NCBI GenBank assembly: GCA_005882275.1 | Contig: VBAK01000137.1 | Span: 1-64,000 of the forward strand | From: Candidatus Segetimicrobium genomatis | Lineage (GTDB): Bacteria > Sysuimicrobiota > Sysuimicrobiia > Sysuimicrobiales > Segetimicrobiaceae | Direction: 5' to 3' | DNA: 64,000 nucleotides | In this document: positions 432-57,284 of the stretch, piece by piece | Layout: every line of letters starts with the position of its first letter | How positions within the stretch are numbered: position 1 is the stretch's first letter | Translations under genes and position numbers: made by a program | Notes under the pieces: model-generated | Databases searched by the model: none | Told to the model about the DNA's origin: nothing | Seen by the model: the letters and a program-made list of their open reading frames with translations, nothing else

Positions 432-456
432 GCGCCGCCGTGGGCGGGCCTACGGC

Positions 457-1887
457 GTGAGCCAGAACGTCCCGGGGTTTCGCGCCGGCGTCGGACGGGC
501 CACCATCACGCCTCCGCTCACCGTCCCGCACGCCGGCTGGGGGGCGCAGACGCATCTCTATGCGGACGGCATCGAAACCGATCTCTGGGCCACGGCGCTC
601 GTGGTGGCCGGCGGCGGCGAGATGGCCGTGATCGTGGATCTCGATCTCGTCGCCGTGTCGCCCGAGGACGCGCAGGCGGTCCGCTCGGCGGTGGCGCGCG
701 CCCTCCGGATTGCCCCCGAGCAGGTCCGGGTCCAGGAGACCCACAATCACGCCGGACCGCCCCCCAGCACCTGGGCGTGGATGGAGGAGGGCACGGATGC
801 GCTCAAGCGCTACTACGGGCAGCTCCCGGATCTGGCGGCCGGCGCGGCCCGGATGGCCCTCGGGGATCTCCGGCCCGCGCGGGCCGGGGCCGGATCCGGC
901 GAGAGCCGCGTGGCCGTGAACCGCCGTGAGGCGGCGCCGGGCGGCCGGGTCGTGACGGGCACCAACCCCGGCGGGGTGATCGATCCTCATCTCCTCGTCG
1001 TGCGCATCGACGCCCGGGACGGGAGCCCGCTGGCGGCGATCATCGGATATACGATGCATCCGACCACGATGGGCCCGACGAACCGCCGCGTCAGCGCGGA
1101 CTGGCCCGGCCATCTCAAGCGCACCGTGGAGGGACTCACCGGGGCGATCTGCCTGTTCGCTCAGGGGGCGACGGGCAACGTCGGCCCCGGACCCGACGGC
1201 TACACGGACGACCCCCGGGTGATCCGCCGGCTGGGCGCGCTGATCGGGTGCGAGGCCGCGCGCGTGTACTTCGGCCTGCAGCTCCCGCCGCGCGCGTACC
1301 GGCACGAACGGGTCTGGGAATCCGGCGCGCCGCTGGGGAAGTGGACCGGCGTGCCGATCGACGAGGCCGAGCCGGTGGTGCGGGTCCTGACCCGGCCGCT
1401 CCGGCTGCCGCTCCGCCCGCAGCCGGCCCTGGCCGAGGCCGACGCCCAGGCGGAGGCCGCCCGGCGGCGCCGCCAGGACCTGGTGGACCGGCGCGCTCCG
1501 GCGGCCGAGGTCGAGGCCGCGACCTTCGCCGCGAAGCGCGCGGCCATGACCCGCGAGCGGGCCCGGAGCTTCGGCGGCCGGTCCGAACTCCCGGTCGAAC
1601 TGCACCTGCTGCAGATCGGCCACGCGGTGCTGGCCGGCATCCCGTGCGAGCCGTTCGCGGAGATCGGGCTGGCCGTCAAGGCGCGCTCGCCCTTCCGGCA
1701 CACCTGGTTCGGCGGGTACACGGGCGGCTGGCTGGGATACATTCCGGTCCCGGAGGAGTACCCGCGGGGCGGATACGAGGTCGAGACGTCGCCGTTTGCG
1801 CCTGAAGCGGCCGGCCGCGTGGTGGAAGGGACCGTTGCCGCCCTTCAGGAGCTCCACGAGATGCCGGCCTCACCTGGACGGCGCTGA
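457..1887 (+). CDS. Neutral/alkaline ceramidase-like hydrolase
   Basis: This 476-residue protein resembles the N-terminal catalytic domain of neutral/alkaline non-lysosomal ceramidases. It opens with a GVGRATITPP motif, has an HNHAGPPP segment matching the family's HxH zinc-binding HTHSGP motif, and later QGATGNVGPG, like the family's GDVSPN loop. I see no signal peptide and no extra C-terminal domain, and it is shorter than true ceramidases, so a cytoplasmic amidase on a small molecule is as likely as lipid hydrolysis. The start is a GTG 25 bases after the aminotransferase stop; upstream codons in frame read into the aminotransferase gene. Residues 320-390 are Arg/Ala-rich and probably helical. 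Confidence 0.72.
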   Translation: MSQNVPGFRAGVGRATITPPLTVPHAGWGAQTHLYADGIETDLWATALVVAGGGEMAVIVDLDLVAVSPEDAQAVRSAVARALRIAPEQVRVQETHNHAGPPPSTWAWMEEGTDALKRYYGQLPDLAAGAARMALGDLRPARAGAGSGESRVAVNRREAAPGGRVVTGTNPGGVIDPHLLVVRIDARDGSPLAAIIGYTMHPTTMGPTNRRVSADWPGHLKRTVEGLTGAICLFAQGATGNVGPGPDGYTDDPRVIRRLGALIGCEAARVYFGLQLPPRAYRHERVWESGAPLGKWTGVPIDEAEPVVRVLTRPLRLPLRPQPALAEADAQAEAARRRRQDLVDRRAPAAEVEAATFAAKRAAMTRERARSFGGRSELPVELHLLQIGHAVLAGIPCEPFAEIGLAVKARSPFRHTWFGGYTGGWLGYIPVPEEYPRGGYEVETSPFAPEAAGRVVEGTVAALQELHEMPASPGRR

Positions 1888-17145: not shown

Positions 17146-17628
17146 GTGTTGAACCGTATTCAGTTGATCGGGCGTCTCACCCGGGATCCGGAGTTACGCT
17201 ACGTGTCCAACGGACACCCGATGGCCCAGTTCACGCTCGCGGTTGATCGGGACTTCAAGAATGCCGCGGGGGATCGCGAAGCCGACTTCATCAAGTGCGT
17301 CGCCTGGAGGAAACTCGCCGAGCAGGTGGGGCAGTACTGCGCCCGCGGCCGTCTCGTGGCGGTGGAAGGCCGGCTGCAGAGCCGGGCGTACGAGGCCTCG
17401 GACGGGGCGCGCCGGCGCGTCACCGAGGTGGTGGGAGACCGCGTCTGGTTTCTCGACAGCCGGCGGGCCGAGGGCGAGGCCGTCCCCGAAGCCGCCTCCG
17501 AAAGCACGGCTGAGGCGGCGCCGGCGGACGGGCAACCTGAGGTGATCGAGGACGCCGAGGCCTCGCCGGAGGAAGACCATCGAAGTCCGATCGAAGCGAG
17601 GAGTAGAACCGAGGTAGGCGAGGAGTAG
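17146..17628 (+). CDS. ssb: Single-stranded DNA-binding protein
   Basis: A 160-residue SSB. The OB-fold (about residues 1-105) begins LNRIQLIGRLTRDPELRYV and includes DFIKCVAWRKLAEQVGQYC and VAVEGRLQSRAYE, all diagnostic. The tail is acidic and Ala/Glu-rich, but it does not end in the conserved DDxxF/DDDIPF tip that recruits repair and replication partners. Instead the last 14 codons are written by the repeat element at 17587-17640. It starts with GTG after GGGGGTGA. Its neighbours are a replication-relaxation protein and a coupling ATPase rather than rpsF/rpsR, so it is likely an accessory, element-borne SSB. It is expected to coat single-stranded DNA in the cytoplasm. Confidence 0.92.
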   Translation: MLNRIQLIGRLTRDPELRYVSNGHPMAQFTLAVDRDFKNAAGDREADFIKCVAWRKLAEQVGQYCARGRLVAVEGRLQSRAYEASDGARRRVTEVVGDRVWFLDSRRAEGEAVPEAASESTAEAAPADGQPEVIEDAEASPEEDHRSPIEARSRTEVGEE

Positions 17629-17640
17629 AACCGAGGTAAC
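17587..17640 (+). repeat. Short repeat element with internal 22-base tandem, at the ssb 3' end
   Basis: A 21-base unit starting GCGAGGAGTAG is present twice, at 17596-17616 and 17618-17638, identical in both. The stretch from CCGATCGAAGCG at 17587 onward also matches a second site at 56296-56327, between icd and mdh, with only a few substitutions. The first unit forms the end of the ssb reading frame including its stop region, so the element has altered the protein C-terminus. Confidence 0.6.
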
Positions 17641-55048: not shown

Positions 55049-56293
55049 ATGGCGACGCCGAAAACACTGACCCCGCCCAAGGAGGGCGAGCGGATCGAGG
55101 CCCGCGGCGGCCGGCTCGCCGTGCCCGACACCCCGATCATCCCCTACATCGAAGGCGACGGCACCGGTCCCGACATCTGGCGGGCCACCGTGCGCGTCCT
55201 GGACGCGGCCGTCCGGAAGGCCTACGGCTCGAAGCGGCGGATCGTCTGGTTCGAGGTGTTCGCGGGAGAGAAGGCCCACGCCCGCTTCGGCACCTGGCTT
55301 CCGGAGGAGACACTGCAGGCGTTCGAGCACTACGTCGTCGGGATCAAAGGGCCGCTGACGACGCCGGTCGGCGGCGGATTTCGGAGCCTCAACGTGTCGC
55401 TGCGCCAGCAGCTCGACCTGTACGCTTGCGTCCGCCCGGTCCGCTACTTCGAGGGGGTCCCCAGCCCCGTGTGTCACCCGGAGCAGGTGGACGTCGTGGT
55501 CTTTCGCGAGAACACGGAGGACATCTACGTCGGCTACGAGTGTGCGAGCGGGTCGCCGGAGGCGAAGCGGTTGATCGAGTTCGTGGGACGGGAGTTCAAG
55601 TGGAAGATCCGCGAGGATGCCGGGGTCGGCCTCAAGCCGATGAGCCCGTTCGGCACCAAGCGGCTGGTCCGCAAGGCCATCCGGTTCGCGATCGACCACG
55701 GCCGCCGCAGCGTCACCCTCGTCCACAAGGGCAACATCATGAAGTACACGGAGGGCGCCTTCGCCCAGTGGGGCTACGAGGTGGCGCGCGAGGAGTTCGC
55801 CGCGGAGACGATCCCCTGGGCCGATGTGGAGAAGCACCACCGCGGTGTGGTCCCGCCCGGGAAGATCCTGATCCAGGATTACATCGCCGACGTGACGTTC
55901 CAGCATGTGCTCACCCGGCCCCGCTCCTTCGACGTCATCGCCACGGGCAACCTGAACGGGGACTACCTCTCCGACGCGATCGCCGCCCAGGTCGGGGGAA
56001 TCGGCATGGCCCCCGGGGGGAACATCAGCGACGTCCACGCGGTGTTCGAGGCGACGCACGGCACCGCGCCCAAGTACGCCAACCAGGACAAGGTGAACCC
56101 GGGGTCGCTGATCCTGTCGGGCGTGATGATGCTCGAGCACCTCGGGTGGCGGGAGGCGGCCGGCCTGGTCATCCGCGGGATGGAAGCGACGTTCCGGAAG
56201 AAGATCGTGACCTACGATCTGGCGCGCCTCATGGAAGGCGCCCGCGAGGCGCGCACAAGCGAGTTTGCCTCGGCCGTCGTCGACAATATGTAA
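55049..56293 (+). CDS. icd: NADP-dependent isocitrate dehydrogenase
   Basis: A 414-residue enzyme of the class with [21 protein letters not shown] at the N-terminus, [22 protein letters not shown] for substrate, and [28 protein letters not shown] and [24 protein letters not shown] hold the cofactor and metal residues typical of the NADP form. It makes 2-oxoglutarate. It begins 3 bases after sdhB. After its stop lies the repeat at 56296-56327. Confidence 0.95.
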
Positions 56294-56295
56294 GG

Positions 56296-56327
56296 CCGAT
56301 CGAAGCGTGGAGTGGAGCCAAGGTAAC
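56296..56327 (+). repeat. Second copy of the ssb-associated repeat, between icd and mdh
   Basis: The stretch CCGATCGAAGCGTGGAGTGG and what follows to GGTAAC matches 17587-17616 with five substitutions or so. It sits in the leader of mdh, ending about 18 bases before the GTG. Its role is unknown. Confidence 0.55.
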
Positions 56328-56345: not shown

Positions 56346-57284
56346 GTGGGGAGAACGCGCGCGAAGGTGACGATCGTGGGAGCCGGGAACGTCGGCCACT
56401 CGGCGGCCCAATGGATGCTCTCGCACCGGCTCGCCGACGTGGTGCTGGTCGACGTCATCGAAGGCATGCCGCAGGGCAAGGCGCTGGACCTGCTCGAGGC
56501 CGAGCCGATCGAGGGGGTCGACGTCCGGATCACCGGGACCAACGGGTACGACGAGACCGAGCAGTCGGACATCGTCGTGATCGTGGCCGGGATCGCCCGG
56601 AAGCCGGGGATGAGCCGGGAAGATCTCCTCGCGACCAACGCCGGCATCGTGCGGGGCGTCACCGAACAGGTGACGAAGCGGTCGCCCAACGCGCACCTGA
56701 TCGTGGTCACCAATCCCCTGGACGTCATGGTGTACCTGGTCCACAAGATCAGCCGCTTTCCCCCCGAGCGGGTGATGGGCCAGAGCGGCGCGCTCGACAG
56801 CACCCGGTTTCGGACCTTCATCGCCCAGACGCTCGGCGTCTCGGTCCAGGACGTCTCCGCGATGGTGATCGGGGCGCACAGCGACACGCACATGGTCCCG
56901 CTGGCGAGCCTCGCCACGGTGGGAGGGATCCCGCTCCGCCGGTTGCTGTCCCCGGATCGGATCGCCGCCCTGGTCGACCGCACCCGCAAGGGCGGCGCGG
57001 AGATCGTGAGCCTCCTCAAGACCGGCAGCGCCTTCTTCGCTCCGGGCGCCGCCATCGCGCAGATGGTGGAGGCGATCCTGCTGGACCGCAAGCGCGTCCT
57101 GCCGCTCTCCGCCTATCTGTCCGGCCAGTACGGCGTGCGCGATCTCTACGTGGGCGTCCCGGCGGTGCTCGGCGCGGGAGGGGTGGAGCGGATCCTCGAC
57201 GCGCCCATGGACGACGGCGAGCGCAAGGCGTTCGACGCGGCCGTCGCGAGCATCCGCGAGAACGTCGCGCTCCTCAAACTCTAG
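56346..57284 (+). CDS. mdh: Malate dehydrogenase
   Basis: A 312-residue NAD-dependent enzyme. KVTIVGAGNVGHSAAQWML gives the Rossmann GxGxxG, VVLVDVIEG the adenine-ribose Asp, and NPLDVMVYLVHKISRF and GQSGALDSTRFR the substrate and catalytic loop; IGAHSDTHMVPLAS carries the active-site His. The tetrameric LDH-like type is expected. GTG at 56346 has GGAGGG 8 bases upstream. Confidence 0.95.
   Translation: MGRTRAKVTIVGAGNVGHSAAQWMLSHRLADVVLVDVIEGMPQGKALDLLEAEPIEGVDVRITGTNGYDETEQSDIVVIVAGIARKPGMSREDLLATNAGIVRGVTEQVTKRSPNAHLIVVTNPLDVMVYLVHKISRFPPERVMGQSGALDSTRFRTFIAQTLGVSVQDVSAMVIGAHSDTHMVPLASLATVGGIPLRRLLSPDRIAALVDRTRKGGAEIVSLLKTGSAFFAPGAAIAQMVEAILLDRKRVLPLSAYLSGQYGVRDLYVGVPAVLGAGGVERILDAPMDDGERKAFDAAVASIRENVALLKL

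Follow-up and report, generated by a model that had tools for sequence, protein, structure and literature searches.

The window, which is the whole stretch of 64,000 nucleotides analysed here, carries the sequence CCGATCGAAGCG on the forward strand at 17587, at the 3' end of an ssb gene, and at 56296, upstream of mdh. The 12-mer by itself is weak (5 matches with at most one mismatch against 1.65 expected). Both copies belong to a 33-bp repeat unit, which is composed of an AAR trinucleotide, an 11-bp A module (GCCRATCGAAG) and a 22-bp B module (GCGWGGAGTRGRRCMAAGGTAA), with edge bases common to both modules.

Repeat copies at ssb and mdh

The first copy encodes the last residues and the stop codon of a reading frame that matches PF00436, and the second is located between a gene of the isocitrate/isopropylmalate dehydrogenase family (stop codon at 56291-56293) and mdh (start codon at 56346), so the original prediction placed both copies correctly, one writing the C-terminus of SSB and one preceding mdh. 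The AA of element 2 is part of the TAA stop of the upstream gene. An additional 22-base copy had also been described at ssb, and it is real, being a second B module; it is no stray duplicate beside one unit, since a second, degenerate A module is also present and makes the array AABB (Table 1).

Table 1. Repeat modules and the ssb gene in the window.
Feature	Position	Strand	Evidence
Element 1, AABB array (degenerate A1, A2, B1, B2) at the ssb 3' end, giving the last codons and stop	17572..17639	+	Module parsing; single AB at the same site of the sister genome (L098)
A module 1, degenerate (GACCATCGAAG)	17575..17585	+	Parsed sequence
A module 2 (TCCGATCGAA)	17586..17595	+	Parsed sequence
B module 1 (GCGAGGAGTAGAACCGAGGTAG)	17596..17617	+	Pattern match
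B module 2 (GCGAGGAGTAGAACCGAGGTAA), the additional 22-base copy, 1 mismatch to B1	17618..17639	+	Pattern match
ssb paralogue, C-terminus entering element 1	17146..17628	+	PF00436, E=1.7e-33
Element 2, single 33-bp AB (AAG GCCGATCGAAG CG...GGT) between the icd-like gene and mdh	56292..56324	+	Sequence, unit pattern
A module of element 2 (GCCGATCGAA)	56295..56304	+	Unit pattern
B module of element 2 (GCGTGGAGTGGAGCCAAGGTAA)	56305..56326	+	Pattern match

In a congener (G003) the ssb orthologue has no element and its product ends with ...SPEEA directly before the stop, so the SSB extension is, on this comparison, a side effect of 33 bp having been inserted in frame. One unit adds 11 in-frame codons in the sister genome (G004), while in the window genome (G000), which has AABB, the stop comes earlier. 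The C-terminus of this SSB may be tolerant of change, because the acidic ...DVPF tip is on the second SSB paralogue of the congeners and not on the product of this ssb. Since the two B copies of the ssb array are near-identical, B2 is probably a local duplication, and the array fits local duplication better than nesting, which counts against the nesting model given below.

Structure and distribution of the 33-bp family

The consensus of the unit is AAR-GCCRATCG-AAG-CGWGGAGTRGRRCMAAGGT, which measures 33 bp from AAR to GGT when the edge bases between the modules are counted once. In the parsed copies the A module, preceded by AAR, varies as GCC[GA]ATCGAA[AG] and the B module as GCG[AT]GGAGT[AG]G[AG][AG]C[AC]AAGGTAA. 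The unit is not palindromic and has neither terminal inverted repeats nor inverted ends, no significant stable fold is found for the AB unit (mean folding z of -0.3 over 46 natural AB copies), and the Rfam search of the 64-kb window has a tRNA as its sole match. One unit variant has sense frames 0 and 1 open and a stop in frame 2, and the distances from copies to start codons range from 1 to hundreds of bp.

The genome-wide family suspected from the two copies exists, as a search of the genome for further copies found about 60 unit matches. The 3.7-Mb window genome has 46 matches with at most 3 mismatches, against 0 for a reversed control pattern; the full unit pattern has 61 matches there and 34 in the 2.5-Mb sister MAG, Ca. 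Segetimicrobium genomatis ANGP1 NP_6, and its reversed control has 0. The unit has 0 matches in three congeners (G001-G003), in seven other members of the family and in the remainder of the 61-genome panel. A scan of GTDB r220, which may omit records close to the window genome, matches solely contigs of Terrabacteria group bacterium ANGP1 isolate NP_6, now named Candidatus Segetimicrobium genomatis (phylum Candidatus Sysuimicrobiota) by NCBI, and no other scanned species. Phage records and viral contigs contain no sequence matching the unit. A 25-bp match on a Comamonadaceae plasmid (L254, CP099604.1, 1497-1530) is a local GATCGAA-rich GCCGATCGAAA tandem without the B module and is probably unrelated. 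Both carriers are draft MAGs, 93% complete for the window genome and 64% for the sister, and repeats tend to break assemblies. No autonomous parent element is found in the drafts of either carrier, and the solitary A or B matches, examined as possible parts of a parent whose modules are widely separated, are degenerate copies or carry the 51-bp family described next.

Other tiny families are present in the same genomes. The 51-bp family (CCCCCTGCGGGGGCTCCAAACC...GAGGTTG) has 29 and 26 matches in the two carriers and none in 19 relatives, forms tandems in both genomes and has a GAGTGGRGCAAA-like core in common with B. At L176, L178, L179, L209 and L133 of the sister genome it is found at one point inside the B module (GGAGTG/GRRC, where the slash marks the point of insertion), and at three of these loci the window genome has a plain 33-bp unit. 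A possible fourth repeat, GCGGCAGGATCGCAGGGC, adjoins 51-bp copies (L192, L198, L211 and others). The 23-bp family (GTGCCTACGGCGTGAGCCAGGAC), to which one word led among over-represented 12-mers in random samples of 364 kb and 300 kb that were otherwise uninformative, occurs in both sister genomes as tandem and as scattered copies (window 447-470, L217 with five tandem copies, L032, L006, L054 and L168) and is not seen in 300 kb of G001. Two 33-bp copies are inserted inside 23-bp copies (L006, L054).

Relative to genes, which were called with a simple codon-based caller, 55 of the 90 copies are intergenic, against about 10% of the sequence, and 62 copies are in sense and 14 in antisense orientation to flanking or host genes, the lineage-specific insertions by themselves being 13 sense and 2 antisense. 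Mapping of stops and starts places the beginning of many copies inside the upstream stop codon and their end at most 20 bp before the next start codon, and GGAG and AAGG are present within the 33-bp copies. This is compatible with a putative regulatory or ribosome-site role, and the same placement could also reflect selection or a tendency of the unit to land beside AAG(G) sites, which are rich in purines.

Empty sites and nested arrays

For each copy without a partner, its two flanks were joined and looked for in the other sister genome. In 15 cases one sister has the element at an orthologous site and its counterpart has an exactly empty site, with a gap-free alignment after removal of the element. 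These lineage-specific insertions, with the comparison of empty and filled sites across two sister genomes, bear out the suggestion that the repeat is mobile. The net gain is 33 bp at 8 sites, 66 bp at 3, 99 bp at 2 and 44 bp at 2, and the 44-bp gains and AAB arrays indicate that the number of A copies can vary independently of B. Because each genome carries copies at sites that are empty in the other, both lineages have been active since the sister species split. At el54, GGGCAGG/AGGACG becomes GGGCAGG[33 bp]AGGACC, and at el75, GCGCGGT/AAGGATGG becomes GCGCGAT[33 bp]AACGATGG. At L008 (1495-1526), where the sister site is empty, an antisense copy puts 11 in-frame codons into the signal-peptide region of an apparent substrate-binding protein.

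The 15 empty sites favour a G/AAGG-like sequence, with G at -1 in 9, A at +1 in 8, A at +2 in 10, G at +3 in 9 and G at +4 in 9 of them, and the inserted unit is directly 5' of the AAG(G)-like motif. The left flanks are kept unchanged up to the insertion point. In 7 of the 15 pairs the filled and the empty allele do not have the same first right-flank base, and 13 of the 15 filled alleles have A there, so one or two target bases may be exchanged for A on insertion; the right boundary of the unit can accordingly be drawn either at GGT or at GGTAA. No consistent or clear target duplication is found in the 15 pairs. A classical target-site duplication, with AAR at both ends, is ruled out by sites with TAT or AGG as right flank, and at el81 (GGGGA/TATC) the left AAR was brought by the element.

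Across the two genomes 90 arrays were parsed and 78 are purely A(n)B(m), being AB in 46, AABB in 18, AAABBB in 3 and others in 11. The numbers of A and B modules are equal in 67 of these 78 arrays, against a permutation mean of 38.8 and a maximum of 53 in 20,000 trials. The A and B modules of L073 in the sister genome match exactly the outer A and B of the AAABBB array L015 in the window genome, in which the two inner B modules differ, which argues that newcomers enter at the A-B boundary; likewise L080, which is AB, and L024, which is AABB, have the diagnostic ...GTGA at their outer end. Adjacent B modules of nested arrays have 4.4 mismatches in 22 positions and random B modules 4.6, and since local duplication would make neighbours near-identical, these figures indicate that the inner units have an outside origin and inserted at the A-B boundary. 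Direct ABAB tandems also exist and are sometimes near-identical, such as ABABAB in L064.

The A-B junction of the unit is CG/AAGCG, which is compatible with the preference of the empty sites, and we infer that this target-like junction explains the nesting. With CG/AAGCG as a target, newcomers would enter older copies and form the nested brackets AABB and AAABBB. The insertion itself would be made by a trans-acting enzyme, or a short single-stranded intermediate would be copied, with AA replacing one or two target bases on the right side. In ssb such an insertion would have given 11 in-frame codons ahead of the stop, while between genes the unit would be a purine-rich spacer, similar to a ribosome site, that the genes tolerate.

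Nature of the elements and known systems

The family very probably consists of very small, non-coding and non-autonomous mobile elements of 33 bp, which insert in trans or by copying and nest at the A-B junction. The 33-bp element is one of the smallest mobile DNA elements known; it has moved dozens of times in a poorly known group of soil bacteria, frequently entering its own earlier copies at a precise position.

An RNA-mediated route, in which the unit is reverse-transcribed and then inserted, is unlikely. The strong sense bias relative to genes is in its favour, as is the RNA intermediate that was reportedly proposed for the cyanobacterial small dispersed repeats (SDRs), whereas the RVT_1 reverse transcriptase model (PF00078) has no match in either carrier or in the three congeners, other reverse transcriptases outside the model or in assembly gaps being possible.

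It is improbable that the copies are instead host regulatory or ribosome-binding elements, which selection maintains between genes and module slippage multiplies, without mobility. The intergenic excess, the sense bias, the many copies that end close to a start codon and their GGAG and AAGG segments agree with such elements, but many unrelated loci show clean gains specific to one lineage, neighbouring B copies are no more alike than random ones, some copies are intragenic or antisense, including the one in the signal peptide, and the congeners have the same genes without the family. The empty sites already refute this explanation as a sufficient account.

That an old family is being lost, with empty sites produced by precise excision or deletion, is very improbable: remnants persist at some sites (el53 compared with L114), but all three congeners are without the family, each sister genome has copies of its own, and inner copies are dissimilar to their neighbours. 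A REPIN/REP-type or MITE-type element moved by a transposase, be it RAYT (Y1) or a different one, that acts on terminal or hairpin structures is scarcely credible, since its REP-like size, dispersion, intergenic bias and clustering (PMC3116915, PMC3733652) are set against a non-palindromic unit with no inverted ends, a folding z of about 0, no target duplication and no Y1/RAYT match (PF01797) in 5 genomes including both carriers, which are drafts with the sister only 64% complete, while 5 of 14 controls matched.

For the preferred explanation, small mobile units that insert in trans or by copying, a broader form is possible but doubtful, namely that tiny units have a route that uses no Y1 transposase, reverse transcriptase or IS110 recombinase, that the 23-, 33- and 51-bp families use this same route, and that at least the 33-bp unit carries targets for itself and another family, so that nested brackets record the order of insertion. 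The IS110 DEDD transposase (PF01548) was not found in the draft carriers. Genes of IS110 type with this domain are present in G001-G003, the congeners without the 33-bp repeat.

How units of less than 50 bp can be mobile is difficult to explain, as they seem too short to hold enough recognition sequence. This family offers many pairs of empty and filled sites, a simple target, a grammar of nested arrays, and two carriers with three non-carrier congeners, a comparison that lets the responsible genes be sought and makes the enzyme question testable beyond cyanobacteria.

Among known systems, REP and REPIN sequences are also small, dispersed, intergenic and clustered (PMC3116915, PMC3733652), while the 33-bp unit is non-palindromic, has no GTAG-tagged hairpin and occurs with no Y1 transposase gene found. 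It differs from a MITE by the lack of terminal inverted repeats and of a consistent target-site duplication, and from an IS110-type derivative by the DEDD transposase gene that the draft carriers were not found to have. Rickettsia palindromic elements likewise add to proteins in frame, but are palindromic and of 105-146 bp (PMC2229807), compared with 33 bp, or 11 codons, in a non-palindromic unit here. The MIRUs of mycobacteria are short, apparently mobile and found at gene junctions, where they are tolerated as the downstream gene remains translatable (PMC12548453); a MIRU contains a small ORF whose coupling to the next gene is at -4 nt, and the 33-bp unit, besides being shorter, inserts into its own copies and is also found in intragenic and antisense positions.

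By analogy, the closest known kind is the cyanobacterial SDRs, taken here from their descriptions in citing papers, and the 33-bp family is of the same kind, found in a different phylum and distinct in sequence and architecture. The SDRs were reportedly described by Elhai et al. in 2008 and are, to our knowledge, the best known case below 50 bp, with no enzyme identified. Some SDRs nest in their own copies, several SDR families coexist in one genome, and some families have a predicted common secondary structure. Papers that cite them summarise SDRs as very short (about 20-30 nt), dispersed and apparently mobile repeats without a known enzyme (PMC4390886, PMC3116915, PMC2884548), and SDR5 as inserting precisely within the HIP1 octamer (PMC4390886). 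Judging by such descriptions, the 33-bp unit probably differs from SDRs in sequence, no similarity being expected, and unlike some SDR families it has no predicted stem (mean folding z of -0.3). It differs further by its occurrence in Ca. Sysuimicrobiota, its two-module A(n)B(n) nesting, its AAG-type target and its sense intercistronic bias, and it resembles SDRs in being shorter than about 50 bp, dispersed (61 and 34 matches), mobile at 15 exact empty/filled pairs and precise in its target.
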